In this document: piece by piece, positions 9,563 to 55,264 of the stretch
How positions within the stretch are numbered: position 1 is the stretch's first letter
How the letters are laid out: each line of letters opens with the position of its first letter
Virus record (IMG/VR): IMGVR_UViG_3300022602_000036
Coordinates: 85,160 to 149,159 of that record
Length of the DNA: 64,000 nucleotides
Direction: 5' to 3' (one strand)
Origin: a virus
The notes under the pieces: model-generated
The model's database searches: none
Told to the model about the DNA's origin: nothing
Seen by the model: the letters and a program-made list of their open reading frames with translations, nothing else
Position numbers and translations under genes: made by a program

Positions 9563-10609
9563 TTACATCACTTCAATATCAGCAGTGGCAATAGGGAATA
9601 GATCAACTCTATGCTTGCGTTCTTGATTGTATTCGTCTTGTGCAAATGGTAGGTATTCACCTGCTAGTTTATCATAATCAAATTGTAAACGTAGACCTAC
9701 TCTGTCAGGTAAACGTCCCTTTGCAGGTTCAATTAGTCTACGATGTAAGGTAATTGAATTATCAAATATCATAAGGTCACGATCACCTTTGTACCAATGA
9801 TCATACATGTACTCTGGAACAAAAATACCTTTTTTAATAGTTTCAAATATCTTTGTGCTTTCTTCTCTAGACATGCCCTCAATATAGTCAAGCGTGGTGA
9901 TGCCTAAGTGAATACCTTTTACCCCACCAGGGCTAGTAATAACCAACGGTACTTTCATATCTGGCTCAGGGCATTGGTTTTCTTTATAAAATGCTTCTTG
10001 ATCTGGTACTACTTCTGGGTGAACTCCTTTTTCGTGATAGTTATGTACTACTACCATTTCATCTAGTTCACTGCGGAAACTTTCACTAAGTGATTCATAA
10101 TAGTCAGTGGTTGTACAAAACCCTGTAGCAGATCCTACGAAGTTTTCCCATCCCATCAAAGACACTCCAGGAGCAAAACTAACATCTGAACAGGCATTGC
10201 TGTGCCAATTCAACTCACCATCTCCAAAGATGCCAATAGATTGTCCACGACGATTTTTCTTAGGTGTTACGCGAACTAGTTGCATGTGCTTGTCAATTAA
10301 CCAACGGCGAGCATTTTGAACTGATTCCATTTCTTCTGCATTGAGCTCATTGTTGAATATTAATTCTTTCAATGGCTTTCCATATTTTAAATATAGATTC
10401 ACTGGACGCGGAAATCTTGGCGTGCCCCATTTTAACATTAGTTCATTATAACGTGGATAGTCAAGAGTATTACCGCGAATAATAGTAACTAATCCCTGAA
10501 GATGTAAATTGCCAATTTCCATCCATTCTTCGTCAGAAATGGTATTTAAATCTACATCATCAATAAAATGGCCAAACCTTCCCAGGCCAGGAATTTTAGT
10601 AATTTTCAT
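9563..10609 (-). CDS. TauD/TfdA-family Fe(II)/2-oxoglutarate oxygenase
   Basis: This 348-residue protein has the TauD/TfdA pattern. Residues 134-144 read N-W-H-S-N-A-C-S-D-V-S, where the family normally has W-H-x-D. A distal histidine lies in S-I-T-L-H289-R-R-L, and arginines in R-V-G-L-R-L-Q-F could bind 2-oxoglutarate. The usual Asp ligand is replaced by Asn138, so the metal site is altered or Asp142 compensates. TauD-like genes are known from T4-like marine phages, but their substrates are not established. GAGGAAA precedes the ATG. The 3' end is two bases from the convergent acyltransferase gene. Confidence 0.8.
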   Translation of the reverse strand: MKITKIPGLGRFGHFIDDVDLNTISDEEWMEIGNLHLQGLVTIIRGNTLDYPRYNELMLKWGTPRFPRPVNLYLKYGKPLKELIFNNELNAEEMESVQNARRWLIDKHMQLVRVTPKKNRRGQSIGIFGDGELNWHSNACSDVSFAPGVSLMGWENFVGSATGFCTTTDYYESLSESFRSELDEMVVVHNYHEKGVHPEVVPDQEAFYKENQCPEPDMKVPLVITSPGGVKGIHLGITTLDYIEGMSREESTKIFETIKKGIFVPEYMYDHWYKGDRDLMIFDNSITLHRRLIEPAKGRLPDRVGLRLQFDYDKLAGEYLPFAQDEYNQERKHRVDLFPIATADIEVM

Positions 10610-10755
10610 AAATTTTCCTCAAATAAATTTTAATTAGATTTTATTGCTAGTGAGAAATCACACACGGAAGGCGTTCTAATTTAACAAATTAGTAAAAGGA
10701 TTATTATCCCAGGCGTCTTAGTTTTCCGACGTCGATGAATATCGGCGCTGCATAA
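10610..10755. other. Intergenic palindrome cluster
   Basis: This 146-base gap between two minus-strand genes contains several short inverted repeats: CTAATTT-AAC-AAATTAG (10676-10692), GGAT-TATT-ATCC (10699-10710), GGCGTC with GACGTC (10712-10733) and CGAT-GAAT-ATCG (10733-10744). It may form a folded transcript end or leader between the two oxygenase-like genes. No clear promoter or coding frame was seen. Confidence 0.4.
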
Positions 10756-11358
10756 TTATTTATGTTGTTTATAAACGCCAGCTAAATTATACATAGGTTC
10801 TGTGCCTAAGTTAAGCATAGCATAGTCATGTACACCTTCGTTTAGGCAATATGCATGACCCATTTTAGGTTCAAAGTATCCGCGGTTCTCAACAGCAAAA
10901 TACCTTTCAGCAACATAATTCAAAGGAATCCAAAATATATTAAATCCTGCATTGATAGAATCTGTAGGCATGTGATATCTATCTTCAATCCTGGTGTGAT
11001 TGTCAAAGAATCCCAAAGGATTCATTTTAATAATGCGTAGCCCCAGGGGAGTAATACCTAATTTTTCAATTGTTTCTTTAAAAATTACAGTACTACTATC
11101 CCACTCAACAGTACAGGGATCTTGGTCAAAACTAAAACTACCATTATGTGAATAAATTAATTTATACTCCATATTACCAATGCTGTTTTCTTTAGGACGA
11201 GTAAATACTGATAACTCAATAGTCTGACAGAGTTGATATAACATACTGGTTGTATCAGCATCAATGTCTGCTATAGGGCGCATGAAATCATTTTCAACTA
11301 ATGATTGATCTATTTCAGATAGCTTAGAAAAGAAATTATAAGTAGCAAGGCTAGGCAT
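10756..11358 (-). CDS. Putative aspartyl/asparaginyl hydroxylase-like oxygenase
   Basis: This 200-residue protein ends with a beta-barrel-like region. It holds N-P-L-G-F-F-D-N-H-T-R (a possible first His/Asp pair), F-N-I-F-W-I-P-L-N and G-V-H-D-Y-A-M-L-N-L-G (a possible distal His followed by the N-x-G turn). This arrangement resembles aspartyl/asparaginyl beta-hydroxylases, which are Fe(II)/2-oxoglutarate enzymes. The match is by pattern only, so the family is tentative. It lies next to the TauD-like gene on the same strand, and both are probably co-regulated accessory genes. Confidence 0.5.
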   Translation of the reverse strand: MPSLATYNFFSKLSEIDQSLVENDFMRPIADIDADTTSMLYQLCQTIELSVFTRPKENSIGNMEYKLIYSHNGSFSFDQDPCTVEWDSSTVIFKETIEKLGITPLGLRIIKMNPLGFFDNHTRIEDRYHMPTDSINAGFNIFWIPLNYVAERYFAVENRGYFEPKMGHAYCLNEGVHDYAMLNLGTEPMYNLAGVYKQHK

Positions 11359-11391
11359 ACTTGATATTTATTCTAATATATGCTATTATAA

Positions 11392-11399
11392 TATAAATA
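11392..11399 (+). promoter_or_regulatory. T4 late promoter, exact consensus
   Basis: TATAAATA, identical to the T4 late consensus, lies 16 bases before the ATG of the Fe-S carrier gene, with AAAGGA in between. Confidence 0.6.
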
Positions 11400-11415
11400 T
11401 CTTAAAGGACCTAAT

Positions 11416-11748
11416 ATGGACTCATTTGTAACTGTAAAACCTGGTGCTATTGCTAAAGTTAAAGAACTCATAGCAGAAGAAAACAATCCTAATCTCAAAT
11501 TGCGTATGTTTGTTAGCGGTGGTGGATGCAGTGGATTCCAATATGGTTTTACTTTTGAAGAAGAAACCAATGACGATGATTGGAGTTTTGACTTTGATGG
11601 TGTTACACTAGTAATAGACAGCATGAGCAGTCAATATCTGCAAGGCGCTGAAGTAGACTATACAGAAAGTCTACACGGTAGTCAATTTAGTATTAAAAAT
11701 CCAAATGCGCAAACTACCTGTGGATGTGGTAGTAGTTTTTCAATTTAA
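11416..11748 (+). CDS. A-type iron-sulfur carrier (ErpA/IscA/HesB family)
   Basis: This 110-residue protein has all three conserved cysteines of A-type carriers: Cys38 in S-G-G-G-C-S-G-F and Cys102/Cys104 in T-T-C-G-C-G-S-S-F. Such proteins receive Fe-S clusters from the scaffold and deliver them to apo-enzymes. Length and spacing are normal for the family. Acidic residues in the middle (E-E-E-T-N-D-D-D-W) resemble ErpA. In this genome it could help mature Fe-S enzymes such as the radical SAM protein at 23.6 kb; that is inference. An exact late promoter precedes it. Confidence 0.92.
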
Positions 11749-11757
11749 AGGGTTTCA

Positions 11758-12621
11758 ATGAGAATAGCACTTTGTTTTAGCGGGCAGAACCGCACAGGAC
11801 ATGTCACAGCAGAAAATATCAAACGTTATGTAGGCGACCTACTACCCGACTGTGATGTATTTGCACACTTTTGGGACAGCGAAACCCGCGGTACCAACTT
11901 TGCTAACCGTGAAGGTGCGGCCAGTACAGGTAATGATTGGCATGATGCACAACTGTCCAGCAAAGACAAATTTGTCAAATTCTACAGTGAATGGATGCCA
12001 CGTACTATCATGGTAGAAGAGTATGACCTACAGCCTAGCAAAAAACTTTGGGGTGGTCGTCGTTGGGATCCTGTAGCAGGCAAATATCAAGTCAGCATGT
12101 GGCGCAGTGTTTACGAAGCCAACAAGCTAAAAATGGACTACGCTCAAAAGAATCAGATTGTGTACGACTACGCAGTGCGATTACGTAGCGACATTGTATT
12201 TGATTCAAGCAAAAGTCTAGCAGAAGACCTAAAAGAAATTCCTAATAATCAAACCATGTTACACGGAGATCATTATCATGTTTGGGATTATGATGGACAT
12301 ACCAGAGTAGAAGATATCTTTTGGTTAGGATCTAGTTCTTTAATGGATCAAGTATCAACTTATTGTTTTGCTCATTCTAACACTGTAGCTAATATAGACG
12401 ACCCTACACAACCTGGATATGAAGATTGGCAATGGCATAGCTGTGCGTGGATTACCAAAACCCTAGGCTATAAAATCAACGCATTAACCAACAACATGAT
12501 GCGTATCTACACAGAACAGGATATAACTTCTGGCACTGATCCTTTAAACCCAGGATGGGGTCGTGCACCACTCTACGGTGCTTACAACGATAAAAACATA
12601 GAGAAAATCCGCCGTTGGTAA
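11758..12621 (+). CDS. Glycosyltransferase-like protein
   Basis: This 287-residue protein begins M-R-I-A-L-C-F-S-G-Q-N-R-T, a start shared by a group of phage and bacterial proteins with a nucleotide-sugar-transferase-like fold. R-L-R-S-D-I-V-F-D (about residues 141-149) is likely the metal-binding acidic site, analogous to DXD. No membrane segment is present. It may modify host surface or virion carbohydrate, but the substrate is unknown. It follows the Fe-S carrier by 9 bases and is followed by a late promoter. Confidence 0.55.
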   Translation: MRIALCFSGQNRTGHVTAENIKRYVGDLLPDCDVFAHFWDSETRGTNFANREGAASTGNDWHDAQLSSKDKFVKFYSEWMPRTIMVEEYDLQPSKKLWGGRRWDPVAGKYQVSMWRSVYEANKLKMDYAQKNQIVYDYAVRLRSDIVFDSSKSLAEDLKEIPNNQTMLHGDHYHVWDYDGHTRVEDIFWLGSSSLMDQVSTYCFAHSNTVANIDDPTQPGYEDWQWHSCAWITKTLGYKINALTNNMMRIYTEQDITSGTDPLNPGWGRAPLYGAYNDKNIEKIRRW

Positions 12622-44533: not shown

Positions 44534-44541
44534 GATAAATA
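44534..44541 (+). promoter_or_regulatory. Late promoter octamer close to ATG
   Basis: GATAAATA ends 7 bases before the ATG at 44549, with no SD between. Confidence 0.55.
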
Positions 44542-44548
44542 CTACATC

Positions 44549-45088
44549 ATGCAAGCAAAAGACCTAATTAGAGCAACAGACAACACTAAAATTTACCTAG
44601 ACATGGATGGAGTCCTTGCAGACTTTTTTGCAGAATATGCAAAACTAGCTGGGGTTACTAGCGGTAGCTACAGAGATATACCACCAGCTAAAGCTGATCC
44701 TACCCTAGACAAAATGATTGGCACTGATTTCTTTGCTCGCTTGCCTATGTTTAGCACAGCGCCAAACTTAATACAACTAGTATTGAGTTACGTACCACAC
44801 TATAACATCTGTTCAAGTCCTTTACGTGGGGATCACGAGAATAGCAGTAAATGGAAACGTGTATGGATCGCTAAACATCTAAGCCCACAACCCAGTGACG
44901 TTGTTATCACAGGGCAAAAAGAACGTCATGCAGTAAACCCAGATGGTAGCCCAAATATCTTAATTGATGATCGCGGCACTAACATTGTTGCTTGGCGTGC
45001 CCGTGGTGGTATTGGCATTAAGTATCAAGCAGATGAAGACAGTTTAGACGTAGTAGCAAAAGGACTAGCACACGCATATGGCTATTAA
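44549..45088 (+). CDS. HAD-family 5'(3')-deoxyribonucleotidase-like phosphatase
   Basis: This 179-residue protein has the HAD nucleophile motif Y-L-D18-M-D20-G-V-L-A-D, an S/T motif (I-C-S-S-P-L) and a late acidic motif (I-L-I-D-D-R). This is the pattern of 5'(3')-deoxyribonucleotidases, which dephosphorylate nucleoside monophosphates. The N-terminus M-Q-A-K-D-L-I-R resembles the capsid-targeting-like starts of its neighbours but lacks the glutamate of the cleavage site. I chose the ATG at 44549. It overlaps the next gene by 11 bases. Confidence 0.8.
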   Translation: MQAKDLIRATDNTKIYLDMDGVLADFFAEYAKLAGVTSGSYRDIPPAKADPTLDKMIGTDFFARLPMFSTAPNLIQLVLSYVPHYNICSSPLRGDHENSSKWKRVWIAKHLSPQPSDVVITGQKERHAVNPDGSPNILIDDRGTNIVAWRARGGIGIKYQADEDSLDVVAKGLAHAYGY

Positions 45089-45818
45089 TTTATATGAAGG
45101 CGGTAATGTTTTTAAAGACGAAAAGGGTCAACCCGCAACTATTCGTATCACTCGCAACAATGTGGTTCCAACAGTACAATGGTTAGAGAAGCTAACTGGA
45201 CTGAATCTAGTAGACAATATGCTAGGCAGTACAGGTTACAAAGAAACTTCAGGTGATCTAGACCTAGGTGTAGATGTTAGTAAAATCTCAAAAGAAACGT
45301 TAATAAATCAGCTGATTAAGAAGGGAATTGACCCAAAAGACATCAGAAAAACAGGCGATAGTGTGCATTTAAAGACACCTATCCTAGGTGATGCAGCTAA
45401 CGGTTATGTACAAACTGATTTTATGTTTGGCGAGCCTAGTTGGCAGAAATTTAGTCTAACTGGTAGCCCAGAAGGTAGCCCATACAAAGGACTACATCGC
45501 CATATTTTACTCAGCAGTATTGCTAAAGCTCAGGGACTAAAATGGAGTCAAAAATACGGCCTAGTTGATCGTGCTACCAATGAAGTTATTACACAAGATC
45601 CTAAAGAAATTGCTGCACGCCTAGTAGACGGAGTTCCAGCAGACTTAGCCAGCGTTGAAAGTATTATTAAAAAAATCAAAGGTCGTCAAGACTACGACCA
45701 ACTAACAGCAGATGCACGCGAATCATTTGCTAAAGATCAGTTAGTATTACCAGAATCTGCACCACTTCCAGGTACAGGTGCTTGGTTCCGTCAGTTTGTA
45801 AACATGGATCATATATGA
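45078..45818 (+). CDS. Pol-beta-type nucleotidyltransferase-like protein 1
   Basis: This 246-residue protein has L-G50-S51-T-G-Y-K-E-T-S-G-D60-L-D62-L-G-V, the G-S-x(n)-D-x-D motif of pol-beta-like nucleotidyltransferases. A third acidic residue may lie in Q-T-D-F-M (about residue 116). The start M-A-I-N-L-Y-E-G-G contains an L-Y-E site, as in capsid-targeted proteins. The stop overlaps the next gene, which encodes a second nucleotidyltransferase. The substrate is not predictable; tRNA, protein or nucleotide are possible. Confidence 0.75.
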   Translation: MAINLYEGGNVFKDEKGQPATIRITRNNVVPTVQWLEKLTGLNLVDNMLGSTGYKETSGDLDLGVDVSKISKETLINQLIKKGIDPKDIRKTGDSVHLKTPILGDAANGYVQTDFMFGEPSWQKFSLTGSPEGSPYKGLHRHILLSSIAKAQGLKWSQKYGLVDRATNEVITQDPKEIAARLVDGVPADLASVESIIKKIKGRQDYDQLTADARESFAKDQLVLPESAPLPGTGAWFRQFVNMDHI

Positions 45819-47002
45819 GAGCAAAAGATCTAGTCAAAGGTAACATTGCTTACCATGAAGAATTAAATCCAGAAGTATGGGATGATGTATTTGGCAAAGG
45901 TTATAAACTTCGTATTGACGTGCGCTATAGGCTATTAGAAATAGCACATCGTTTTATTGAATACTTAGAAGTACCCGACTTTAAACTATCAGGTATCTTA
46001 TTACGTGGTAGTCTAGCTAACTATAACTATACTCCCTACAGTGACTTTGATCTACACCTAGTTACCAACTATGCTGATCTAGGCTGTGATATCACAGAAC
46101 AGTTTTACATGGCCAAGAAAAAGATATGGAACGACGAACATGACATTACTATCAAAGGCTATGAAGTAGAACTTTATGTAGAAGACGTTGATGCTAAAAA
46201 CGTCAGCTCAGGCACATACGATATCTTAGATGATAAATGGGTAAGTGTGCCTAAACACGAAGAGCCTACTATAGATGACCGTGCTGTTAATGCCAAAGCC
46301 CGTGACCTAATGACCCAGGTCAATCGCGCAGTTAAATCAGGTAGTGTAGAAGACCTAGACAGACTAAAAGACAAAATTAAAACAATGCGTCAAGCTGGTT
46401 TAGATGCTAACGGTGAGTTTAGTACAGAAAATCTAGCATTTAAAATCCTGCGTAACAAAGGTTACATGGATAAACTATACAAAGCCAAAAATCAAAAGTT
46501 TGATCAGGAATTGAGCTTAGATGAACAAGTTATTAACGAACTAAGAAACAAGTTGCAGGATTATCTACAGCAACAGTTTCCTACATGGCCACCGTATGTG
46601 GTAAATGATCTACTGTATAAAAATGCCAAAGGTATAACTGATTCTGCAGAGTTAGAAGATTGGATCGCTGGCATTAAGAAAGACTACAAAGTTAAACGTT
46701 GGGAGTTGATTAATGACATGCCTATTACGTTTAAGATGTTTCATCCAGAAACCAGAAAACAATTAATAGCACGTGGGGTAGGTACAGATACTATTCAAAA
46801 TCCTTATAATGTACCAAAAGACGACGAACGTCATGCTCAACAGGCCGCAATGATACAACAGCGTGGTATCAGTCCAGAGCCTATTGTGTTAATGAAGGGT
46901 CGTCACCAATACTATTTAATAGAAGGCTGGCACAGAACTATACAGCACTTCAAAGCAAACCCACAAGGATATAAAGGCCCAGCTTGGGTTGGATATCTAT
47001 GA
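45815..47002 (+). CDS. Pol-beta-type nucleotidyltransferase with ParB-like C-terminus
   Basis: This 395-residue protein has R-G65-S66-L-A-N-Y-N-Y-T-P-Y-S-D77-F-D79-L-H-L-V, a clear minimal-nucleotidyltransferase motif, with E-V-E-L-Y-V-E (about 113-119) as the third acidic element. The C-terminal third (P-E-P-I-V-L-M-K-G-R, Y-Y-L-I-E-G-W-H-R) resembles a ParB/sulfiredoxin-type nuclease fold. The start M-R-A-K-D-L-V-K is like the other targeting-type starts but without Glu. I chose the ATG at 45815, which overlaps the previous stop. A two-domain enzyme like this could modify a host macromolecule. Confidence 0.75.
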   Translation: MRAKDLVKGNIAYHEELNPEVWDDVFGKGYKLRIDVRYRLLEIAHRFIEYLEVPDFKLSGILLRGSLANYNYTPYSDFDLHLVTNYADLGCDITEQFYMAKKKIWNDEHDITIKGYEVELYVEDVDAKNVSSGTYDILDDKWVSVPKHEEPTIDDRAVNAKARDLMTQVNRAVKSGSVEDLDRLKDKIKTMRQAGLDANGEFSTENLAFKILRNKGYMDKLYKAKNQKFDQELSLDEQVINELRNKLQDYLQQQFPTWPPYVVNDLLYKNAKGITDSAELEDWIAGIKKDYKVKRWELINDMPITFKMFHPETRKQLIARGVGTDTIQNPYNVPKDDERHAQQAAMIQQRGISPEPIVLMKGRHQYYLIEGWHRTIQHFKANPQGYKGPAWVGYL

Positions 47003-47097
47003 AAGAATATTTTACATTTGAGAACTTACCACTGACTATAGTAGTTGGATTAGTTGCTTGGTCATGGGCTATTGTTTTTACTGTGATCTTATCATGA
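46999..47097 (+). CDS. Small membrane protein (32 aa)
   Basis: The ATG at 46999 overlaps the upstream stop and the TGA at 47095-47097 overlaps the next ATG. The product is a single membrane helix (I-V-V-G-L-V-A-W-S-W-A-I-V-F-T-V). It may be a coupling peptide or a short membrane effector. Confidence 0.5.
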   Translation: MKEYFTFENLPLTIVVGLVAWSWAIVFTVILS

Positions 47098-47498
47098 GAG
47101 CAAACGAATTCTTAAAAGAAGACTCCCATATACCGCGTTATCTATATAAATGGGTGAACGGTCAACAATTCCAGAAGTATATTGATGCAGGCAAGCTGCC
47201 GGTTAAACGTAAGTATGCTCACTATATTGATGCTGTTGATAGGTTAGTTCCAGGCAATAGTTTTACAGATGAAGCACATATTGGCAGATGGACTGGTGAT
47301 ACATTAATTAGAATTGACGCGAGCAAACTGTCTAATAACATATATCCCATTGCTGGTAATAGAACATATCTAAAAACAATGGGGATGACACACAGTGAGT
47401 ACGATCCAAATGCGTGGGAATACGAGCCGGAAGAAATAGACGAATATTGGATTGAAGGCCCTGTTGATATTAGTTCAGCGGAAATAATTAAGAAGTAA
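47094..47498 (+). CDS. Small protein with capsid-targeting-like start, possible ADP-ribosyltransferase-like fold
   Basis: This 134-residue protein starts M-R-A-N-E-F-L-K-E-D, very close to the T4 capsid-targeting peptide. The remainder has L-Y-K-W-V, G-N-S-F-T-D-E and E-Y-W-I-E-G-P-V, an arrangement loosely like the S-T-x and E-x-x-E strands of ADP-ribosyltransferases. T4 Alt is an injected ADP-ribosyltransferase with such a leader, so the analogy is attractive but weak. I chose the ATG at 47094. No other family is recognised. Confidence 0.55.
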   Translation: MRANEFLKEDSHIPRYLYKWVNGQQFQKYIDAGKLPVKRKYAHYIDAVDRLVPGNSFTDEAHIGRWTGDTLIRIDASKLSNNIYPIAGNRTYLKTMGMTHSEYDPNAWEYEPEEIDEYWIEGPVDISSAEIIKK

Positions 47499-48361: not shown

Positions 48362-48369
48362 GATAAATA
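48362..48369 (+). promoter_or_regulatory. T4-like late promoter octamer
   Basis: GATAAATA lies 31 bases before the ATG at 48401. Confidence 0.5.
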
Positions 48370-48400: not shown

Positions 48401-51400
48401 ATGCGTTACAGTCAAATTAAAAAAGCCCTACGAGAAGCAGAGATCATTGATGAAGTATCAATGAGTCCAACCAGCCTTGAAAAATTTGCCAATAGTCCAG
48501 AAGCAGAAGGCATGCTTATGGGCATTGAATTTGAAATGTGCGTACCTAATGCATCATCAGGCGATGACGAACCTGAATGGGAATACGACTGGGACGCTAA
48601 CGAAAGTGCCTACGACATTGACGAAATTATTAACTTCTTCCGTATGGGCGAATTTAGTAACATGAGTCGCAGTGATGCTGATCGCCTACGCAGTCAGTTA
48701 TACGATGAATACCTAGAATGGCAGTACGAAGCTGCACAAAACTACGTAGACGAAAATACTACTGATGTTATTGAGAAAACTCGTGAGTATTTACAAGATG
48801 ATGCTCGTGATGCCAGCAATGATCATTACGATGAATTTGTCGCAGATGCTAAAGAAGAACTAGGCAAACTATTACCAGACGATGATGCCGCTATAGAAGA
48901 GCGTGTTCGTGCATTAACATTAGCATGGATGGATCGTTGGATAGATGAACAAATAGAAGAAGCAGATAGCCGCGCATACGATAACGCACGTGAAGCTGCT
49001 GAAGAAGAACTACGAGAAGAGTACCGTGACAACTATGCTAGCCAAACAGATTGGCTAGAGTCAATTGGCGTTGATGACATGCAGGATGCACATCGCCATT
49101 GGAACTTAGATTGGCCACACATGTATGATGCTAACTACAGCGACGAAGGTAGTGCTGACGTAGATCAAGTAGCAGATGATTTCTACGGTGCTACAGGTTA
49201 CGAAGCACGTGGTTACAGCAACTACCATGCTGCTAGCCGCAGTGACCAACAAGCAAAAGGTTATTTCATTATTGAACCAGATGGCTCAATTGATGCTGAT
49301 AGTGGTGATGCAGGCTTGGAGTTTATTAGCCCAGCAATGCCACTTAAAGACGGCATTGAAATGATCAAGCGAGTTAAACAATGGGCTAAGGCAGCTGGTT
49401 GTTACACTAACAAGTCAACTGGCCTACACATGAACATCAGTGTTCCTGGAATGACTATTGAGAATCTAGACTATGTTAAACTAGCATTGTTCCTAGGTGA
49501 CGAACACGTACTTAAAGAGTTTGGTCGTCAATACAATAGTTTCTGTAAAAGTGCAATGAAGATTGTTAAAGAAAAGATTGAACAGAATCCAGAAAATGCC
49601 ACAGCCTTATTAAACAAGATGAAAGAACATCTTGGTGCGGCTGCTAGTAAACTAATCCACAGTGGCGTTACACAAAAGTATACAAGTATTAACACCAAAG
49701 ACAAGTATGTAGAATTCCGTGGTCCTGGTGGCGATTATCTAAACGAAGACATACCTAAATTAATCAGCACTGCTCTTCGTCTAGCACAGGCTCTACGCAT
49801 TGCTACAGATGATAATGCTTACAAACAAGAATACGCTAAGAAGTTATACAAATTAGTAAGTCCAAATGAAGGTGATTGGACGGATCCTAACAATTCAGTA
49901 TCTCTATTCAGTCGCTATGCTCTAGGCGAAATTAAGAAAGATGAATTAGTCAGCAATGTACGTCAAGCACAGGTAGCTCGTAAAGAGAAGAAAGGTGAAG
50001 AACAACAGTACTGGGTTATGAACAAAGACGGTACTGGCGGCAAGCAAATGGTCTTTGCTCAAAGTACTACAGATGCTATCATCAAAGGTGGTAAGCAATT
50101 AGGCATGAAGCGTGAGGACAGTATTAGCAAACTTAAGGCCGTGCCGTTTGAACGTACTCCTCCAGGTCCAGCACCAACTAAACCAGCACCAGAATCATTG
50201 ACTGGTGGTTGGATCAATTGGATCAAAGATAAAGCACCAATAGTAGACGCAAATGAACTGTTCAGAATTGAACAAGAACTTAAAGCCGGAAATTTTAGTT
50301 ACCTAGATGATGAGAGTACACAATATCTATTAGACTATATTAATGAACTAATAGAATTCCGTAAAGAATCTAGTACACAAATCCCAGACTCAGTACCCGA
50401 AGGATGGAAAGGTTGGGTTGAAGATACCCTACCACATGTTACATTAGCAATAGCAAACGAAGTTAGAGCGAGAATTAAAGACGGCAGGGATGGTTTAGAT
50501 CAAGCGGCTAATGTTTGGATTATCCAACAAATTGACAAAGAACTACGTCGTAGACAAAGCGGTACAGCAGATAATGGTGGTGTTGTCGACAATAATGAAA
50601 CACGCTGGAAGGTTAATTCTGCAAGTGGTAGTTCAGTATATGTTGATGCTGATAGCCCACGTCAAGCCAAAGTTAAAGCAGTAGAATTGTTTGCAAGAGA
50701 ACATGGATTAAATGTTGATGCTAATGATTTAGAAGCCATTGCTACTACGCAGGATAGTGGTGCGTTACATGCTATTCCACAACAATGGCGTAACTGGGTT
50801 GATACATTACCTAATAGACGCACAGAAGTTATTGCTGACTTTAGACGCCAAATTGAACAAGGTGAACATAATCCTAGTTTAGAATCACAAGCGCAACGCG
50901 ATGCTGTGATTAGAGTTATTGATGATGAACTACGCCGTAGACAAGATGCTGGTGAAACTGGTGAAGAACAAGAATGGTCTATTAGAGATGGATTGGGTAG
51001 ATATGTAGGTACAACAAACGCAAGAACACAGGCCGAAGCACTACATATATACGGTAGTGTTAATAATGTTGATCCTAGAAACTATACAGCAACTTTAACT
51101 GATGATAATCCTCCACATGCGGGCATGTCTACTACCAGCAGAGAAGTGTTTGATAGTTTACCAGAAGGTACTAGATCTTGGCTAGAGCGTGTAGGTGAGC
51201 ATCACGATTTAGAACTACGTCAGGCTCTAGATCATCTTGCGGCAGGTAGAGGTATCGGTAGTGGACTATATAGTAATCAAGTAGCATTTGTTAAAACAGC
51301 TATTGAGACTGAACTACGCCGTCGTAGCAATAATGCTGCTGTAGAAAACGATGATACTACCAGAAATCCAGTGTTTGATACACTACCACAGCACTGGAAA

Positions 51401-51724
51401 GATTACATTGCTAATGATCTAAGTTATAGTGCAGATATGCATCTTATCAATATGTTAAGAAATCTATCGCGTGAGGATGCTGGCCGTAATCTTACTCTAA
51501 GCGATCAACAGTTAGCCTACATTAGAATTTTACTTAAACGTCAATTGCGTGCTAACGGTATTAACCCAGACGATGAATCAACTCCGTCACCAACTACTAC
51601 TTACGCAGATGATGCTGATGAGCGTGAACGTATGCGTCGTGAGCGTGAGCAGATTTCACAGGATATGGCACAACAAACAAACGAAAGTATTAAAGAACTA
51701 CGCAGACTAGCAGGATTACAATAA
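48401..51724 (+). CDS. Large modular amidoligase-like protein with interleaved repeats
   Basis: This 1107-residue protein starts M-R-Y-S-Q-I-K-K-A-L-R-E-A, with an L-R-E capsid-protease-like site. Residues ~35-470 resemble Amidoligase_2 (glutamine-synthetase-like) enzymes: M-G-I-E43-F-E45-M, E-P-D-G-S-I-D, G-L-E-F-I-S-P and G-L-H-M-N-I-S. An acidic helical insertion lies between the first motifs. The C-terminal part holds two interleaved repeats. One is ~55 residues with W-x-x-W/Y ... L-R-R-R (five copies, starting near 601, 665, 792, 920 and 995). The other is ~50 residues with W-x-V ... A-x-S-x-x-x-A (three copies near 533, 732 and 855). The end, N-E-S-I-K-E-L-R-R-L-A-G-L, looks like a conserved tail. 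It could ligate amino acids or peptides. Confidence 0.7.
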   Translation: MRYSQIKKALREAEIIDEVSMSPTSLEKFANSPEAEGMLMGIEFEMCVPNASSGDDEPEWEYDWDANESAYDIDEIINFFRMGEFSNMSRSDADRLRSQLYDEYLEWQYEAAQNYVDENTTDVIEKTREYLQDDARDASNDHYDEFVADAKEELGKLLPDDDAAIEERVRALTLAWMDRWIDEQIEEADSRAYDNAREAAEEELREEYRDNYASQTDWLESIGVDDMQDAHRHWNLDWPHMYDANYSDEGSADVDQVADDFYGATGYEARGYSNYHAASRSDQQAKGYFIIEPDGSIDADSGDAGLEFISPAMPLKDGIEMIKRVKQWAKAAGCYTNKSTGLHMNISVPGMTIENLDYVKLALFLGDEHVLKEFGRQYNSFCKSAMKIVKEKIEQNPENATALLNKMKEHLGAAASKLIHSGVTQKYTSINTKDKYVEFRGPGGDYLNEDIPKLISTALRLAQALRIATDDNAYKQEYAKKLYKLVSPNEGDWTDPNNSVSLFSRYALGEIKKDELVSNVRQAQVARKEKKGEEQQYWVMNKDGTGGKQMVFAQSTTDAIIKGGKQLGMKREDSISKLKAVPFERTPPGPAPTKPAPESLTGGWINWIKDKAPIVDANELFRIEQELKAGNFSYLDDESTQYLLDYINELIEFRKESSTQIPDSVPEGWKGWVEDTLPHVTLAIANEVRARIKDGRDGLDQAANVWIIQQIDKELRRRQSGTADNGGVVDNNETRWKVNSASGSSVYVDADSPRQAKVKAVELFAREHGLNVDANDLEAIATTQDSGALHAIPQQWRNWVDTLPNRRTEVIADFRRQIEQGEHNPSLESQAQRDAVIRVIDDELRRRQDAGETGEEQEWSIRDGLGRYVGTTNARTQAEALHIYGSVNNVDPRNYTATLTDDNPPHAGMSTTSREVFDSLPEGTRSWLERVGEHHDLELRQALDHLAAGRGIGSGLYSNQVAFVKTAIETELRRRSNNAAVENDDTTRNPVFDTLPQHWKDYIANDLSYSADMHLINMLRNLSREDAGRNLTLSDQQLAYIRILLKRQLRANGINPDDESTPSPTTTYADDADERERMRREREQISQDMAQQTNESIKELRRLAGLQ

Positions 51725-52329
51725 TGAATATAATTGATTTGTTTGAAGAAATGGAAGTAAACAATCTAACCCTAATTGATGCACTACGTGACTTCCTGCC
51801 GTTGGCTGTGCGTCATTTAAAACTTCCTGGTATTCCTAAAATTACTTTAGAAAAAAACATAGAAAAATCTAATGTTCCTACCTTTGGTCGCTTTACTAAC
51901 GAAGACGATCATGTATATGTAGCCATTAATAATCGCAACCCCAATGATATTCTACGTACACTAGCACACGAAATGTGCCATTTCAAACAACGTACAGAAC
52001 ATCAACTAAGTGGTGGTAGCTGGCACACAGGTAGCCCAGAAGAAAATCAAGCACACGATCAAGCTGGTATTATCATGCGTGAGTTTAACAGCAAATTTCC
52101 ACAATACCTACGTATGAAACCTATTATTTTACCTAATTCAGCACCTAGCAAGGACTTAGATGAAAACTTTGCAGATGGCAAGGGTCCGGGTCGCCCAGGT
52201 GATAGTCAACGCTATGGCATTCCAAAACATGCTACTATGTCTGAATTAGAACGAGCCAGCCACAGCAAAGGCCGTAAAGGACAGCTAGCTCGTTGGCAAC
52301 TAAATATGCGTAGAGGGCATAAAAAATGA
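51724..52329 (+). CDS. Zinc metallopeptidase-like protein with targeting-like start
   Basis: This 201-residue protein carries L-A-H82-E83-M-C-H86-F-K, a zincin HExxH motif of the SprT-like/WLM type. A conserved tail, G-K-G-P-G-R-P-G-D-S-Q-R, G-I-P-K-H-A-T and K-G-R-K-G-Q-L-A-R-W-Q, is shared among phage proteins. The start M-N-I-I-D-L-F-E-E-M resembles a capsid-targeting peptide. It overlaps the amidoligase gene by one base and the next gene by 4 bases. It could be an injected protease acting on a host protein. Confidence 0.75.
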   Translation: MNIIDLFEEMEVNNLTLIDALRDFLPLAVRHLKLPGIPKITLEKNIEKSNVPTFGRFTNEDDHVYVAINNRNPNDILRTLAHEMCHFKQRTEHQLSGGSWHTGSPEENQAHDQAGIIMREFNSKFPQYLRMKPIILPNSAPSKDLDENFADGKGPGRPGDSQRYGIPKHATMSELERASHSKGRKGQLARWQLNMRRGHKK

Positions 52330-52874
52330 GAGCCATTGAATTTTTAACAGAAGTTAAACAACGTTTAGACGCTAAATGCTGGAAGGGCAAACACAAAGAA
52401 GGTACCAAGATCAAAGGTGGCGTTCGTGTTAATAACTGTGTACCAAATGAAAGCCTAGAACTAGAAGAAGAGTTTAATCTTATTGAGTCTATCATTGACA
52501 ATCTTGCACTACGCAATCAAGTTGATAGTGAAGTGATCTGGGAAGATTTAGAATCCTTGTCAGATGACGAGCTATATGTATTTGCTGTTACACAAGAGCC
52601 AGTGAACGAAGATTGGCAAAAGGTCAACAAGAAAGACAAAACAGATGGTATGAGTAAGAAAGCTGTTAGTGCATACCGCCGTGAACACCCTGGCAGTAAA
52701 TTAAAAACAGCCGTTACTACTAAACCTAGTAAACTAAAGAAAGGTAGCAAGGCCAGCAAGCGTCGTAAGAGCTACTGCTCACGTAGTAAAGGTCAAATGA
52801 AAATGCACAATATCAGCTGTGCTAAAACTCCAGATAAGGCAATTTGTAAAGCACGTCGTCGCTGGAACTGCTAA
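52326..52874 (+). CDS. Basic protein with targeting-like start and DUF6321-like tail
   Basis: This 182-residue protein starts M-R-A-I-E-F-L-T-E-V, with an L-T-E site. The N-terminal half is mixed with an acidic middle. The C-terminal half is very basic with cysteines (K-R-R-K-S-Y-C-S-R, then N-I-S-C and W-N-C) and resembles the DUF6321-type tail of T4-like phage proteins. It could bind DNA inside the capsid. It overlaps the peptidase gene by 4 bases. Confidence 0.65.
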   Translation: MRAIEFLTEVKQRLDAKCWKGKHKEGTKIKGGVRVNNCVPNESLELEEEFNLIESIIDNLALRNQVDSEVIWEDLESLSDDELYVFAVTQEPVNEDWQKVNKKDKTDGMSKKAVSAYRREHPGSKLKTAVTTKPSKLKKGSKASKRRKSYCSRSKGQMKMHNISCAKTPDKAICKARRRWNC

Positions 52875-52876
52875 CA

Positions 52877-53389
52877 ATGTTTCTTGCTGAATTTGGGCCG
52901 CCCAAAAACCTAGACCACTATCTTTACAAACTTTGTAAAGAACTAGTATTTGCACAAAAAGTCAAACCTGAATACTATGGTTGGGTAGCTGCAGGTATCC
53001 TAGATCCACGCAATCGTTTTATATGGGCCATTAACATTCCTGCAGGTGAAGGCGATCGTTTACATGCTGAACCAGCGGCCATGCAGAAATATCAAGCAAC
53101 CTACGGTGATATTCCAAAGGGCAGTATCTTACTTACTACGCTAAGTCCTTGCAGTGAATTTATGAATGATCGTGATGGTCCTAGCTGTACAGAGATTGTT
53201 GATAACAGTCCTATACGCAGAGTCTATTGCGGGTTCATTGATCCTACACAAGGTGAAAGTGCAGCATATCAAAACAAGCAGTTTACTTTAATTGCTACTA
53301 AAAATAAAAAAATACACGAAATGTGCAAGGGCTTTGCAGAAGAGTTTTTGGGCAGTTTAGCCGACACCCACGTTAACAAGGAAAATTAA
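52877..53389 (+). CDS. Cytidine/deoxycytidylate deaminase-like protein
   Basis: This 170-residue protein has the deaminase zinc motif: L-H63-A-E65-P-A-A and S-P-C92-S-E-x8-S-C104. This is the His-Ala-Glu/Cys/Cys set of the cytidine deaminase superfamily. The spacing between cysteines (about 12 residues) is larger than the usual 2, so it may be a divergent subgroup. The start M-F-L-A-E-F is targeting-like with L-A-E. The substrate could be a nucleotide or a protein/nucleic-acid base. Confidence 0.7.
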   Translation: MFLAEFGPPKNLDHYLYKLCKELVFAQKVKPEYYGWVAAGILDPRNRFIWAINIPAGEGDRLHAEPAAMQKYQATYGDIPKGSILLTTLSPCSEFMNDRDGPSCTEIVDNSPIRRVYCGFIDPTQGESAAYQNKQFTLIATKNKKIHEMCKGFAEEFLGSLADTHVNKEN

Positions 53390-53390
53390 C

Positions 53391-53810
53391 ATGACCAATT
53401 GGGAAACCTACGTTAAGGAATCCTATGAATTAGTTCGCAGAGCAGAATGCGAACTCACTGTTAATTTGACACACGAATTAGAAGCCTATGTAGTACACTT
53501 ATTTGCCTATTATCTAGATAAACCTTTGGTCAACACAGTGCCAGTGGGAATTAAACTACTGTCAGCCAGCAATTTGCCTGTTACCACTCGCAAGGAAGTA
53601 TTCAAATCAGTAGGAGACGAATGTCTACTAATCAACGCAATGGAATGGGGTCGTCGTCGCTGGCCCAGTGATAATTACTATGCTGACATGGGGCAAATGG
53701 CCTACTTAAATCGTGCTTACGCAGAACGCCCACCAGAAGATCTATATGATGATTTGGCATTGGAATTTCAAACTGCCACTCGTATACTCAGAAAATGTAG
53801 AGTAAATTAG
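53391..53810 (+). CDS. Conserved protein (139 aa)
   Basis: This 139-residue helical protein contains F-K-S-V-G-D-E-C-L-L-I-N-A and Y-Y-A-D-M-G-Q-M-A-Y. I believe this is a conserved hypothetical shared with bacterial proteins. AAGGAAAAT precedes the ATG. It overlaps the convergent desaturase gene by 4 bases. The function is unknown. Confidence 0.6.
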   Translation: MTNWETYVKESYELVRRAECELTVNLTHELEAYVVHLFAYYLDKPLVNTVPVGIKLLSASNLPVTTRKEVFKSVGDECLLINAMEWGRRRWPSDNYYADMGQMAYLNRAYAERPPEDLYDDLALEFQTATRILRKCRVN

Positions 53811-54925
53811 ACAATATTATTTGTTTGTATATTGTAAAACAATCTGATAAAATAATATTGTATATTAATATATTTTAACAATCTAGGTCCAAGTATCAAT
53901 GCATTTTTTCTATGATGGCTAGCATGATAAGCGTATTCTGGACAAATTAAAAATAGTTTAGGATGATCTTTTTCTGTTTGTCTGGTAGCAGACCCTGGGT
54001 GTGCTACAATTTCACCAAAGAATAAAGAATATATTTTGTTTATCCAAATTTGTAAAAATACAAAAAAGAAGTAATATTTTAATCCCAACAATGCTAATAG
54101 TATTATGTGCAGTGTTAAAAATACCTTTGTATAATTATTTTCAATGAACAAAGAAAATTTATCCAAAGACTTTAAGTAAGTTGGGTTAAGGTCGGCGACA
54201 AATGATTCAGCTAGTTTATTATTTTTATTATTAATTTTCATATTTAAAAACAAATAGACTAACCAATGATTTTCAGCTAGATTTCCCTGTACATCATCTT
54301 CCTCTTTGCGCCACTCTTTATGATGGTATAGATGTCTACAGGTCCAGTGTAGTCTAGCAGATTTAGTAGTTTCGTGCCAAAACACAACACCAATTAAACT
54401 TAGTATCATGCTTATTAATTTATTTTTAGGAGTTACGTATCTGTGTGACCATCCCATGTGCCCAACTACTACTAGACAATTACACACAATGTATGCTTCT
54501 ATCAGCGCATATCCAATCAAATCAAATTGAAAATACAAAAGGCCAGCAATAACACAGACTAACTGTAATGGAATACTGTTAATTAATTCATTAACATATT
54601 TCATTGTTTGAAAATATTTAATTTTTAGTTTTTGCTCTGTTGGCAGTGTTGTGGTATGTGATTGTAAAGATTCTAAGGTAGTTGGAAATTGATTTAAATC
54701 ATAGCAAATCAAATCAATACCACGATTTCTTAATAATTTTTGTACCAAGGCTTCATCTTCTAGTGTTAAATTAGCCCAAGTAGTAATTTTGTTAGCCGCA
54801 ATTTTATTAACTAACTCAAAATTTGGTGAATTGTCTATGTCGGAATATGATAAGATTTCTCTTTGCTCCCAGCGAGCATACTCATCAAATGGCTTTCCGC
54901 CCCAATTAGCTGTGTCTATTTGCAT
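53807..54925 (-). CDS. Membrane fatty acid desaturase-like protein
   Basis: This 372-residue protein has three histidine clusters: G-H-M-G-W-S-H-R, H-W-T-C-R-H-L-Y-H-H and Y-H-A-S-H-H-R-K. These are the di-iron ligands of membrane acyl desaturases/hydroxylases. Four or so membrane segments are visible, with an N-terminal ~110-residue soluble extension that is unusual. I chose the ATG at 54925; an ATG at 55015 would add a hydrophobic leader but lies upstream of the promoter. A TATAAATA octamer on the minus strand ends 7 bases before 54925 without an SD. It may alter membrane lipids during infection. Confidence 0.8.
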   Translation of the reverse strand: MQIDTANWGGKPFDEYARWEQREILSYSDIDNSPNFELVNKIAANKITTWANLTLEDEALVQKLLRNRGIDLICYDLNQFPTTLESLQSHTTTLPTEQKLKIKYFQTMKYVNELINSIPLQLVCVIAGLLYFQFDLIGYALIEAYIVCNCLVVVGHMGWSHRYVTPKNKLISMILSLIGVVFWHETTKSARLHWTCRHLYHHKEWRKEEDDVQGNLAENHWLVYLFLNMKINNKNNKLAESFVADLNPTYLKSLDKFSLFIENNYTKVFLTLHIILLALLGLKYYFFFVFLQIWINKIYSLFFGEIVAHPGSATRQTEKDHPKLFLICPEYAYHASHHRKNALILGPRLLKYINIQYYFIRLFYNIQTNNIV

Positions 54926-54932
54926 GGTTAAA

Positions 54933-54940
54933 TATTTATA
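54933..54940 (-). promoter_or_regulatory. T4 late promoter, exact consensus, close to ATG
   Basis: TATAAATA on the minus strand lies 7 bases before the desaturase ATG at 54925. It is another short-leader late promoter. Confidence 0.6.
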
Positions 54941-55006
54941 GCTAACCACTAGACATGCATATATAATTAATGTATACTTAAATTTTAAACGCAAGAGGAA
55001 TCTTAA

Positions 55007-55264
55007 ATGGCACAAATGTTTTCAAGTGAGCAAAAAGCTAAATTAACTCAAATAGTTAACGAAGGTATTGCAGTATTACAAGAAGTAGAAGATCTGACAG
55101 CAGGCTTAAATGATACTGTTAAAGCTGTTGCAGAAGAACTACAAATCAAACCAGCTATCTTAAAGAAAGCCATTAAGATTGCACAAAAAGCTAAATTTGG
55201 TGAAACTAATCAAGATCACGAAACACTACAAGACATTCTTGAAACTGTTGGCCGTACGCTTTAA
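55007..55264 (+). CDS. DsbA-like dsDNA-binding protein (tentative)
   Basis: This 85-residue helical protein resembles T4 DsbA-type proteins in size and helical pattern. Visible are E-Q-K-A-K-L-T-Q-I-V-N-E-G, L-Q-I-K-P-A-I-L-K-K-A-I-K-I-A and the acidic C-terminus T-L-Q-D-I-L-E-T-V. T4 DsbA binds dsDNA and modulates late transcription. GAGGAA is the SD. The next gene starts on its stop. Similarity is weak, so the name is tentative. Confidence 0.5.
   Translation: MAQMFSSEQKAKLTQIVNEGIAVLQEVEDLTAGLNDTVKAVAEELQIKPAILKKAIKIAQKAKFGETNQDHETLQDILETVGRTL

Follow-up and report, generated by a model that had tools for sequence, protein, structure and literature searches.

What an amide-bond-forming enzyme with long repeat arms and conserved ends would do for a phage, and where it would act, is the question raised by one gene in a 64,000-nucleotide stretch of viral DNA (here called the window), which covers bases 85160-149159 of the IMG/VR record IMGVR_UViG_3300022602_000036 (G000; 149,159 bases, probably a fragment). 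The gene is a complete open reading frame (ORF) at 48401-51724 on the plus strand, on which all features of the window given below also lie unless stated otherwise; it starts with ATG and encodes 1107 amino acids, confirming the coordinates given in a preliminary description of the locus made from the sequence alone, and a single copy was found in the record. The answer considered here as probable, with considerable reservation, is that the product is a virion-packaged, late-made amidoligase of T4-related jumbo-type phages, which would be trimmed by the prohead protease gp21, ejected with the DNA and used to form an amide bond once inside the new host.

The amidoligase domain and its family

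According to sequence and model the catalytic domain (48461..49870, residues about 21-490) is a member of Amidoligase_2 with a glutamine-synthetase-like fold, predicted to form amide bonds in a manner dependent on adenosine triphosphate (ATP). The preliminary description had recognized an Amidoligase_2-like catalytic region and had proposed profile comparison with PF12224 and structure prediction as checks, and both bore it out. The isolated domain (residues 1-504) matched PF12224 significantly (37.3 bits, E=3.7e-9, cut-off 22, residues 269-460), the same family was also matched by 53 of 58 relatives, and the amidoligase domain was missed in a Pfam scan with the full-length 1107-residue protein. 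The PHROGs scan gave phrog_2443 “amidoligase enzyme” (E=1e-6), and the best matches in the viral library were named amidoligases, the Atu_ph07 protein among them.

Residues G41, E43, E45, E292, D294, S296, E307, T340, G341, H343, E438, and R440 are invariant across the 58 relatives, a set which we take to be the active-site pattern expected for the glutamine-synthetase-like amidoligase family. They lie in the motifs GIEFE (G41-x-E43-x-E45; 48521..48535), EPDGS ... GLEFISP (E292, D294, S296, E307, and P311; 49274..49333), TGLHMN (T340, G341, and H343; 49418..49435), and EFRGPG (E438, R440, and G443; 49712..49729). The AlphaFold2 model of the domain, built with the same 58 relatives, reached a predicted local distance difference test (pLDDT) score of 83.9, and the 50 best PDB matches in Foldseek were nearly all glutamine synthetases, the rest being glutamine-synthetase-like enzymes (best E=3e-3, probability 0.96). 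The template modeling score was low, about 0.2, probably because of an acidic, mostly helical insertion of about 150 residues (residues about 86-235; 48656..49105), which is modelled as helices 90-118, 120-136, 142-155, 162-186, and 191-212 and is poorly conserved in sequence.

The family comprises more than 80 members in uncultured phages, IMG/VR searches having given 13 and then 80 relatives, while among 50,697 phage records searched the only cultured homologue belongs to Atu_ph07 (two records). By accession offset this homologue, AUZ94978, is gp196, and it lies within a cluster of virion-protein genes (coding sequences 170-215); in its sequence an L-T-E stands ahead of L-K-M.

Conserved ends, tagged neighbours, and late-promoter-like sites

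The phage is one of a T4-related group of jumbo type. The 188.8 kb relative G001 encodes T4-type gp21 (PF03420) and gp23 (PF07068) with gp22 between them, this gp22 being related to the scaffolds of PA5oct, RaK2-like phages, Vibrio phage 2.275, and Atu_ph07; a gp21-type prohead protease was also found in four further carriers of the amidoligase (G005, G006, G009, and G013).

The conserved end of the amidoligase, NESIKELRRLAGL, already noticed in the preliminary description, finds its match in related genomes at the C-terminus of the gp22-type head scaffold, with which the tail NESIKELRRLAGLQ (51680..51721) is held in common. The gp22 proteins end in ...IKRLAGLK (G001), ...EIKRLAGLK (G006), ...EMKRLAGLN (G009), and ...AIKRLAGL (G013), and in the cultured phages in ...ELRRLAGIK (PA5oct) and ...LKRLAGIKK (Atu_ph07). 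The full tail motif closes 7 of the 943 ORFs in four genomes, where 0.019 would be expected; the bearers are gp22, the phrog_13484 family, which is annotated as virion structural protein (G001, 10013-12388), the amidoligase, and its 376-residue neighbour in G001. Both the N-terminus and the tail are kept in all relatives of the repeat-bearing clade. A tail scan of Atu_ph07 gave matches no commoner than those of the reversed-pattern control, gp22 being the sole clear one.

Two side observations concern these tails. The Atu_ph07 ORF at 171475-172719 of MF403008.1 (L191:2501-3745) is annotated as “DNA double-strand break repair Rad50 ATPase”, an annotation found in two other phages as well; it is a gp22-type head scaffold, standing directly before the major capsid protein and ending in LKRLAGIKK. 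In the relative L074:5001-8027 a single ORF comprises the amidoligase, the LAGL tail, a second cassette protein of G-T-R-W-C-T-A type, which is usually encoded by a tagged gene of its own, and the LAGL tail again; the two tails are identical over 39 nucleotides, through either a recent recombination event between them or a chimeric assembly, and L074 was not used as proof.

At the other end the protein starts with a capsid-targeting-like peptide, MRYSQIKKALREAEIIDE (48401..48454), with candidate gp21 cleavage sites at L10-x-E12 and I16-x-E18. T4 IPII and IPIII start with MKTYQEFIAE/A (the slash marking the cut), these first ten residues being a proven capsid targeting sequence (CTS), after whose L/I-x-E gp21 cuts (PMC9026906). 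Compared with the MKTYQEFIAE form, the window peptide has the elements M-R-x-x-Q-I and L/I-x-E. The motif [LI]xE[IVL]x[MQ] immediately precedes the amidoligase domain in all 68 family members compared, and in 47 of the 68 an M[RK]xx[DEQ][FILV] start is also present at the proper spacing; model confidence is about 55 (pLDDT) over residues 1-20 and 89 from residue 21. The targeting-like start seen in the preliminary description thus obtains strong comparative support from the gp21-type L/I-x-E of the 68 members and from neighbouring genes with T4-CTS-like starts.

These neighbours form a cassette of genes opening with MRAIEFLTE, MRANEFLKE, MRARDFLTE, and similar peptides. A strict CTS pattern, M[RK]xx[DEQ][FILV][ILV]xE, was drawn from G000-G002 and tested on four other, independent genomes, where it occurred at 23 of 1870 N-terminal methionines versus 1 of 4583 internal ones (p=6.7e-12). 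In G005, G006, and G013 strict-pattern ORFs lie less than 9 kb from the amidoligase gene in 15 of 18 cases (1.3 expected), and in G009 they are not clustered near it.

A T4/cyanophage-type late-promoter-like element, GATAAATA, stands at 48362..48369, 39 nucleotides before the amidoligase start codon, and again at 44534..44541 upstream of the first cassette gene. The general form NATAAATA, known as the late promoter of T4-like cyanophages (PMC2984593), is present within 60 nucleotides upstream of 16-69 ORFs per genome versus 1.1-4.8 expected, and with at most one mismatch the site precedes 34 of 68 family members versus 8.4% of random 100-mers.

The amidoligase might instead be an early-made metabolic enzyme acting on cell-wall or metabolite precursors, comparable to the amidoligase/GATase/ATP-grasp sets encoded by phages of phiEco32, LUZ24, and tf type, its end motifs being unrelated to the head. 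In the 2009 account of Iyer et al. the superfamily is reportedly described as acting on peptides and cell-wall precursors, which counts for this explanation, as does the occurrence of most known phage Amidoligase_2 genes in sets of this kind (PMC3890496, PMC3517423, PMC10580990). We nevertheless consider it unlikely: the upstream sites are late-type and not early-type, the C-terminus is of the gp22 kind, and the gene sits in a cassette of tagged genes. Moreover, the GATase_6 partner was found in 0 of 7 genomes, several of these records being fragments, and the control was found in 14 of 14; a COOH-NH2 ligase/ATP-grasp partner (PF14395) was likewise found in 0 of 7, in a search which gave nothing in the controls either. 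Because the GATase partner of the LUZ24, tf, and OM43-phage sets is absent in these seven genomes, a cell-wall target, one of those suggested in the preliminary description, becomes less likely and is not supported.

Several facts weigh against a packaged and trimmed enzyme. The N-terminus of the amidoligase exceeds in length the strict CTS pattern met by its neighbours and follows it only loosely, the loose pattern M[RK]x3-9[LI]xE shows no enrichment at N-termini over internal methionines, and [LI]xE also marks the junction where members carry an additional domain at the N-terminus, so that it might be conserved as a part of the domain. The tail is confined to the repeat-bearing clade, which would leave only the N-terminus to direct the packaging of the other members; the Atu_ph07 homologue has neither arms nor tail, the gp22 of RaK2 has the tail only in degenerate form, and the gp22 of T4 has no such tail. 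Neither gp21 nor gp23 was found in the incomplete G000. In PA5oct one of two strict CTS-like ORFs was flagged by mass spectrometry (EST35_0150, MKINDIITE/G, flagged; EST35_0271, MKIKEIILE, not flagged). The mass-spectrometry flags of this phage, in which gp22 is the sole tail bearer and is not flagged, were set aside as a test of the tags, the tagged ORFs being too few.

Some of these facts would also agree with a tail which marks late proteins in general and has nothing to do with the inside of the head, serving, for example, membrane, tail, or protease contact, and with an [LI]xE that is simply a part of the fold. Few non-homologous proteins bear the tail, a structural role is conceivable for residues 16-21, and the loose N-terminal motif is not enriched. 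Against it stand the nature of gp22, the core scaffold, which gp21 degrades in T4, and that of a second tail carrier, whose family bears the annotation virion structural protein; moreover, model confidence is low over residues 1-20, and independent genomes show enrichment of the strict N-terminal motif. We regard this explanation as quite improbable.

Repeat arms and neighbouring genes

Between the catalytic domain and the tail the preliminary description had distinguished five repeats of about 55 residues (A) and three of about 50 residues (B), interleaved along the chain. In our analysis each held-out repeat profile was scored against 2000 shuffles, and profiles were compared with one another by hhalign. 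The A repeats proved real: A1 (residues 601-657; 50201..50371), A2 (666-720; 50396..50560), A3 (793-849; 50777..50947), and A4 (921-977; 51161..51331) were equalled by 0 of 2000 shuffles each, and A5 (996-1053; 51386..51559), for which 14 of 2000 shuffles were as good, matched A1, A2, A3, and A4 in profile-profile comparison at more than 99.5%, the hhalign probability among A1-A5 being above 99% throughout. Each A repeat consists of three helices, the copy number varies from 2 to 6 among relatives, and the repeats were seen solely in the tail-bearing clade, the more distant members carrying other C-terminal regions.

The B units (B1, residues 535-581, 50003..50143; B2, 733-782, 50597..50746; B3, 856-899, 50966..51097) were rejected as an unproven sequence family: held-out B2 and B3 scored no better than shuffles, the likeness of B1 to B2 and B3 was not significant, and the hhalign probability among B1-B4 was at most 3.2%. 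What they do have in common is a predicted layout, since in the AlphaFold model (mean pLDDT 69) every B unit shows the same beta-beta-alpha-beta order, so they may be structural repeats. The interleaving noticed earlier holds, the unit order being B-A-A-B-A-B-A-A. A fold search with the arms gave no usable PDB match.

The cassette around the gene begins with a nucleotidase at about 44549, which probably starts with MQAKDL. It is followed by an ORF at 45078..45818 with the start ...LYE/GG (LKE/GG and LLE/GG in relatives), by a weakly nucleotidyltransferase-like ORF at 45815..47002 starting with MRAKDL... (PF22600, E=0.009, below the cut-off; phrog_36119 of unknown function, E=1.6e-44), and by an ORF at 47094..47498 (MRANEFLKE/D) with no family match. 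Downstream of the amidoligase lie a metallopeptidase-like ORF with an HExxH motif (HEMCH) at 51724..52329 (MNIIDLFEE/M; SprT-like, weakly, E=0.08) and an ORF at 52326..52874 (MRAIEFLTE/V) with a DUF6321 basic C-terminus (PF19846, 36.8 bits). For 47094-47498 and for the CTS-like-tagged ORFs G006:206486-207859 and G013:155690-156802 an ADP-ribosyltransferase nature was suspected by eye; it had no Pfam support and is not claimed.

Further observations concern the gene content of the cassettes. In G013 a CTS-like-tagged ORF at 151620-152279 (MKSFEFLSE/A) with LysM and phage tail lysozyme domains (PF18013, 104.8 bits) adjoins the amidoligase. A basic module, NFADGKxPGR...L..A....G.K....W..NM..G...K, recurs at the ends of non-homologous cassette proteins and is possibly a nucleic-acid-binding packing tail; the C-terminal basic module of 51724-52329 is found again in L095, L096, and L126, where it is fused to the amidoligase. 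In the giant relatives L090:5010-9662 and L102:5052-9920 the amidoligase is fused to cytidine-deaminase and GNAT domains in the C-terminal region, and in the window a deaminase is a separate gene nearby (52877-53389). On the opposite strand, 53807-55015 (-) encodes a histidine-rich membrane protein, acyl-lipid desaturase-like by its His boxes recognized by eye, which adjoins the DNA polymerase gene.

Proposed mode of action and comparison with known systems

For the packaged enzyme the following sequence of events is proposed. The protein would be made late, from the NATAAATA promoter, and would enter the prohead core through one or both of its tags, the N-terminal M-R-x-x-Q-I...L/I-x-E peptide and the C-terminal NES-xxxx-R-R-L-A-G-L tail. 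The former may work as the T4 capsid targeting sequence does, and the latter, as a copy of the gp22 C-terminus, would dock wherever that C-terminus docks. Then gp21 would cut after the conserved L/I-x-E just ahead of the catalytic domain, leaving the mature enzyme in the head to be ejected along with the DNA. In the cytoplasm, with ATP at hand, the glutamine-synthetase-like site would activate a carboxylate and join it to an amine, the likeliest target being a protein or peptide of the host, which the variable A/B arms, as putative binding modules, would hold in place.

Core targeting and a scaffold-type tail would equally suit a head-assembly or maturation enzyme, which makes its amide bonds on phage head or core proteins, or a mere structural filler. 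T4 IPIII likewise takes part in shaping the head (PMC9026906), and three family members weakly match PF06810 Phage_scaffold. However, the ATP needed would not be expected within a sealed head, cassette enzymes such as the Pol-beta-type nucleotidyltransferase and the LysM/tail-lysozyme protein suggest delivery, and a tblastn search with the amidoligase gave no match in PA5oct/RaK2-type jumbo phages, which argues against a general assembly function; this explanation appears rather unlikely.

The packaged ligase of the preliminary description thus gains strong comparative support from the gp22-like tail, the L/I-x-E of all 68 members, and the CTS-like neighbours, packaging itself being what we infer from them. 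What that description had observed stands for the enzyme, the A repeats, and the ends and not for B as a sequence family, and its interpretation stands in part, without the cell-wall target.

More tentative, and somewhat doubtful at present, is the wider proposal that a two-ended address for head cargo, consisting of a gp21-cut N-terminal CTS and a C-terminal copy of the gp22 end, loads a swappable set of enzymes, including an amide-bond-forming ligase with which proteins of the host are modified at the time of entry. Phage amidoligases, T4 internal proteins, and polyvalent injected proteins are already known; in the literature searched neither an amidoligase as head cargo, nor a gp22-like C-terminal tag, nor an amide-ligation attack on host proteins by phage virions was described, and a jumbo-phage review names amidoligase only in a reference title. 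If the proposal is true, the head cargo of uncultured T4-related jumbo phages could be read from sequence by two short tags, many hypothetical proteins would become testable injected effectors, and amide ligation would join ADP-ribosylation and acetylation among the enzymatic tools by which phages reprogram hosts at entry. The idea of a gp22 tail also bears on scaffold-cargo docking in T4-type proheads.

Among known systems, the closest in the enzyme itself are the Amidoligase_2 (PF12224) proteins, including Atu_ph07 gp196 and the “Amidoligase enzyme” of uncultured Caudovirales (A0A6J5L9S8, A0A6J5LC14), with which the window protein has fold, motifs, and domain order in common; it differs from the family in the acidic helical insertion which separates GxExE from the D-S motif, in the A/B arms and tail, and in having no accompanying GATase partner. 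The LUZ24/tf/phiEco32-type sets of amidoligase and GATase (and ATP-grasp) likewise include a phage-encoded Amidoligase_2 enzyme, but their place is among blocks of early or replication genes, together with partner enzymes, whereas the window gene, without GATase, lies in a cassette of tagged genes with late-type promoters.

Polyvalent proteins (Iyer et al. 2017, PMC5512222), in whose main text amidoligase is not named, are also large, modular phage proteins predicted to be injected. They are recognized by at least two disparate effector domains, a multi-domain organization which L090 and L102 share with their amidoligase, deaminase, and GNAT domains, while in the window protein only one enzymatic domain was found.

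The T4 internal head proteins differ in their activity, which is ADP-ribosylation or anti-restriction in place of amide-bond chemistry, and the amidoligase, whose location in the virion is putative, has long repeat arms and a tail like that of its own group's gp22. In other respects they offer the nearest parallel. Alt, IPI, IPII, and IPIII, which bear a CTS, are processed by gp21, and are ejected, have an N-terminal peptide (M-K/R ... E-F/I ... L/I-x-E) which the longer start of the amidoligase resembles; a T4-type late promoter and a prohead protease are found in relatives carrying the amidoligase, which like them looks like dispensable, variable cargo; and Alt, cut at both ends, is itself an enzyme (PMC9026906).

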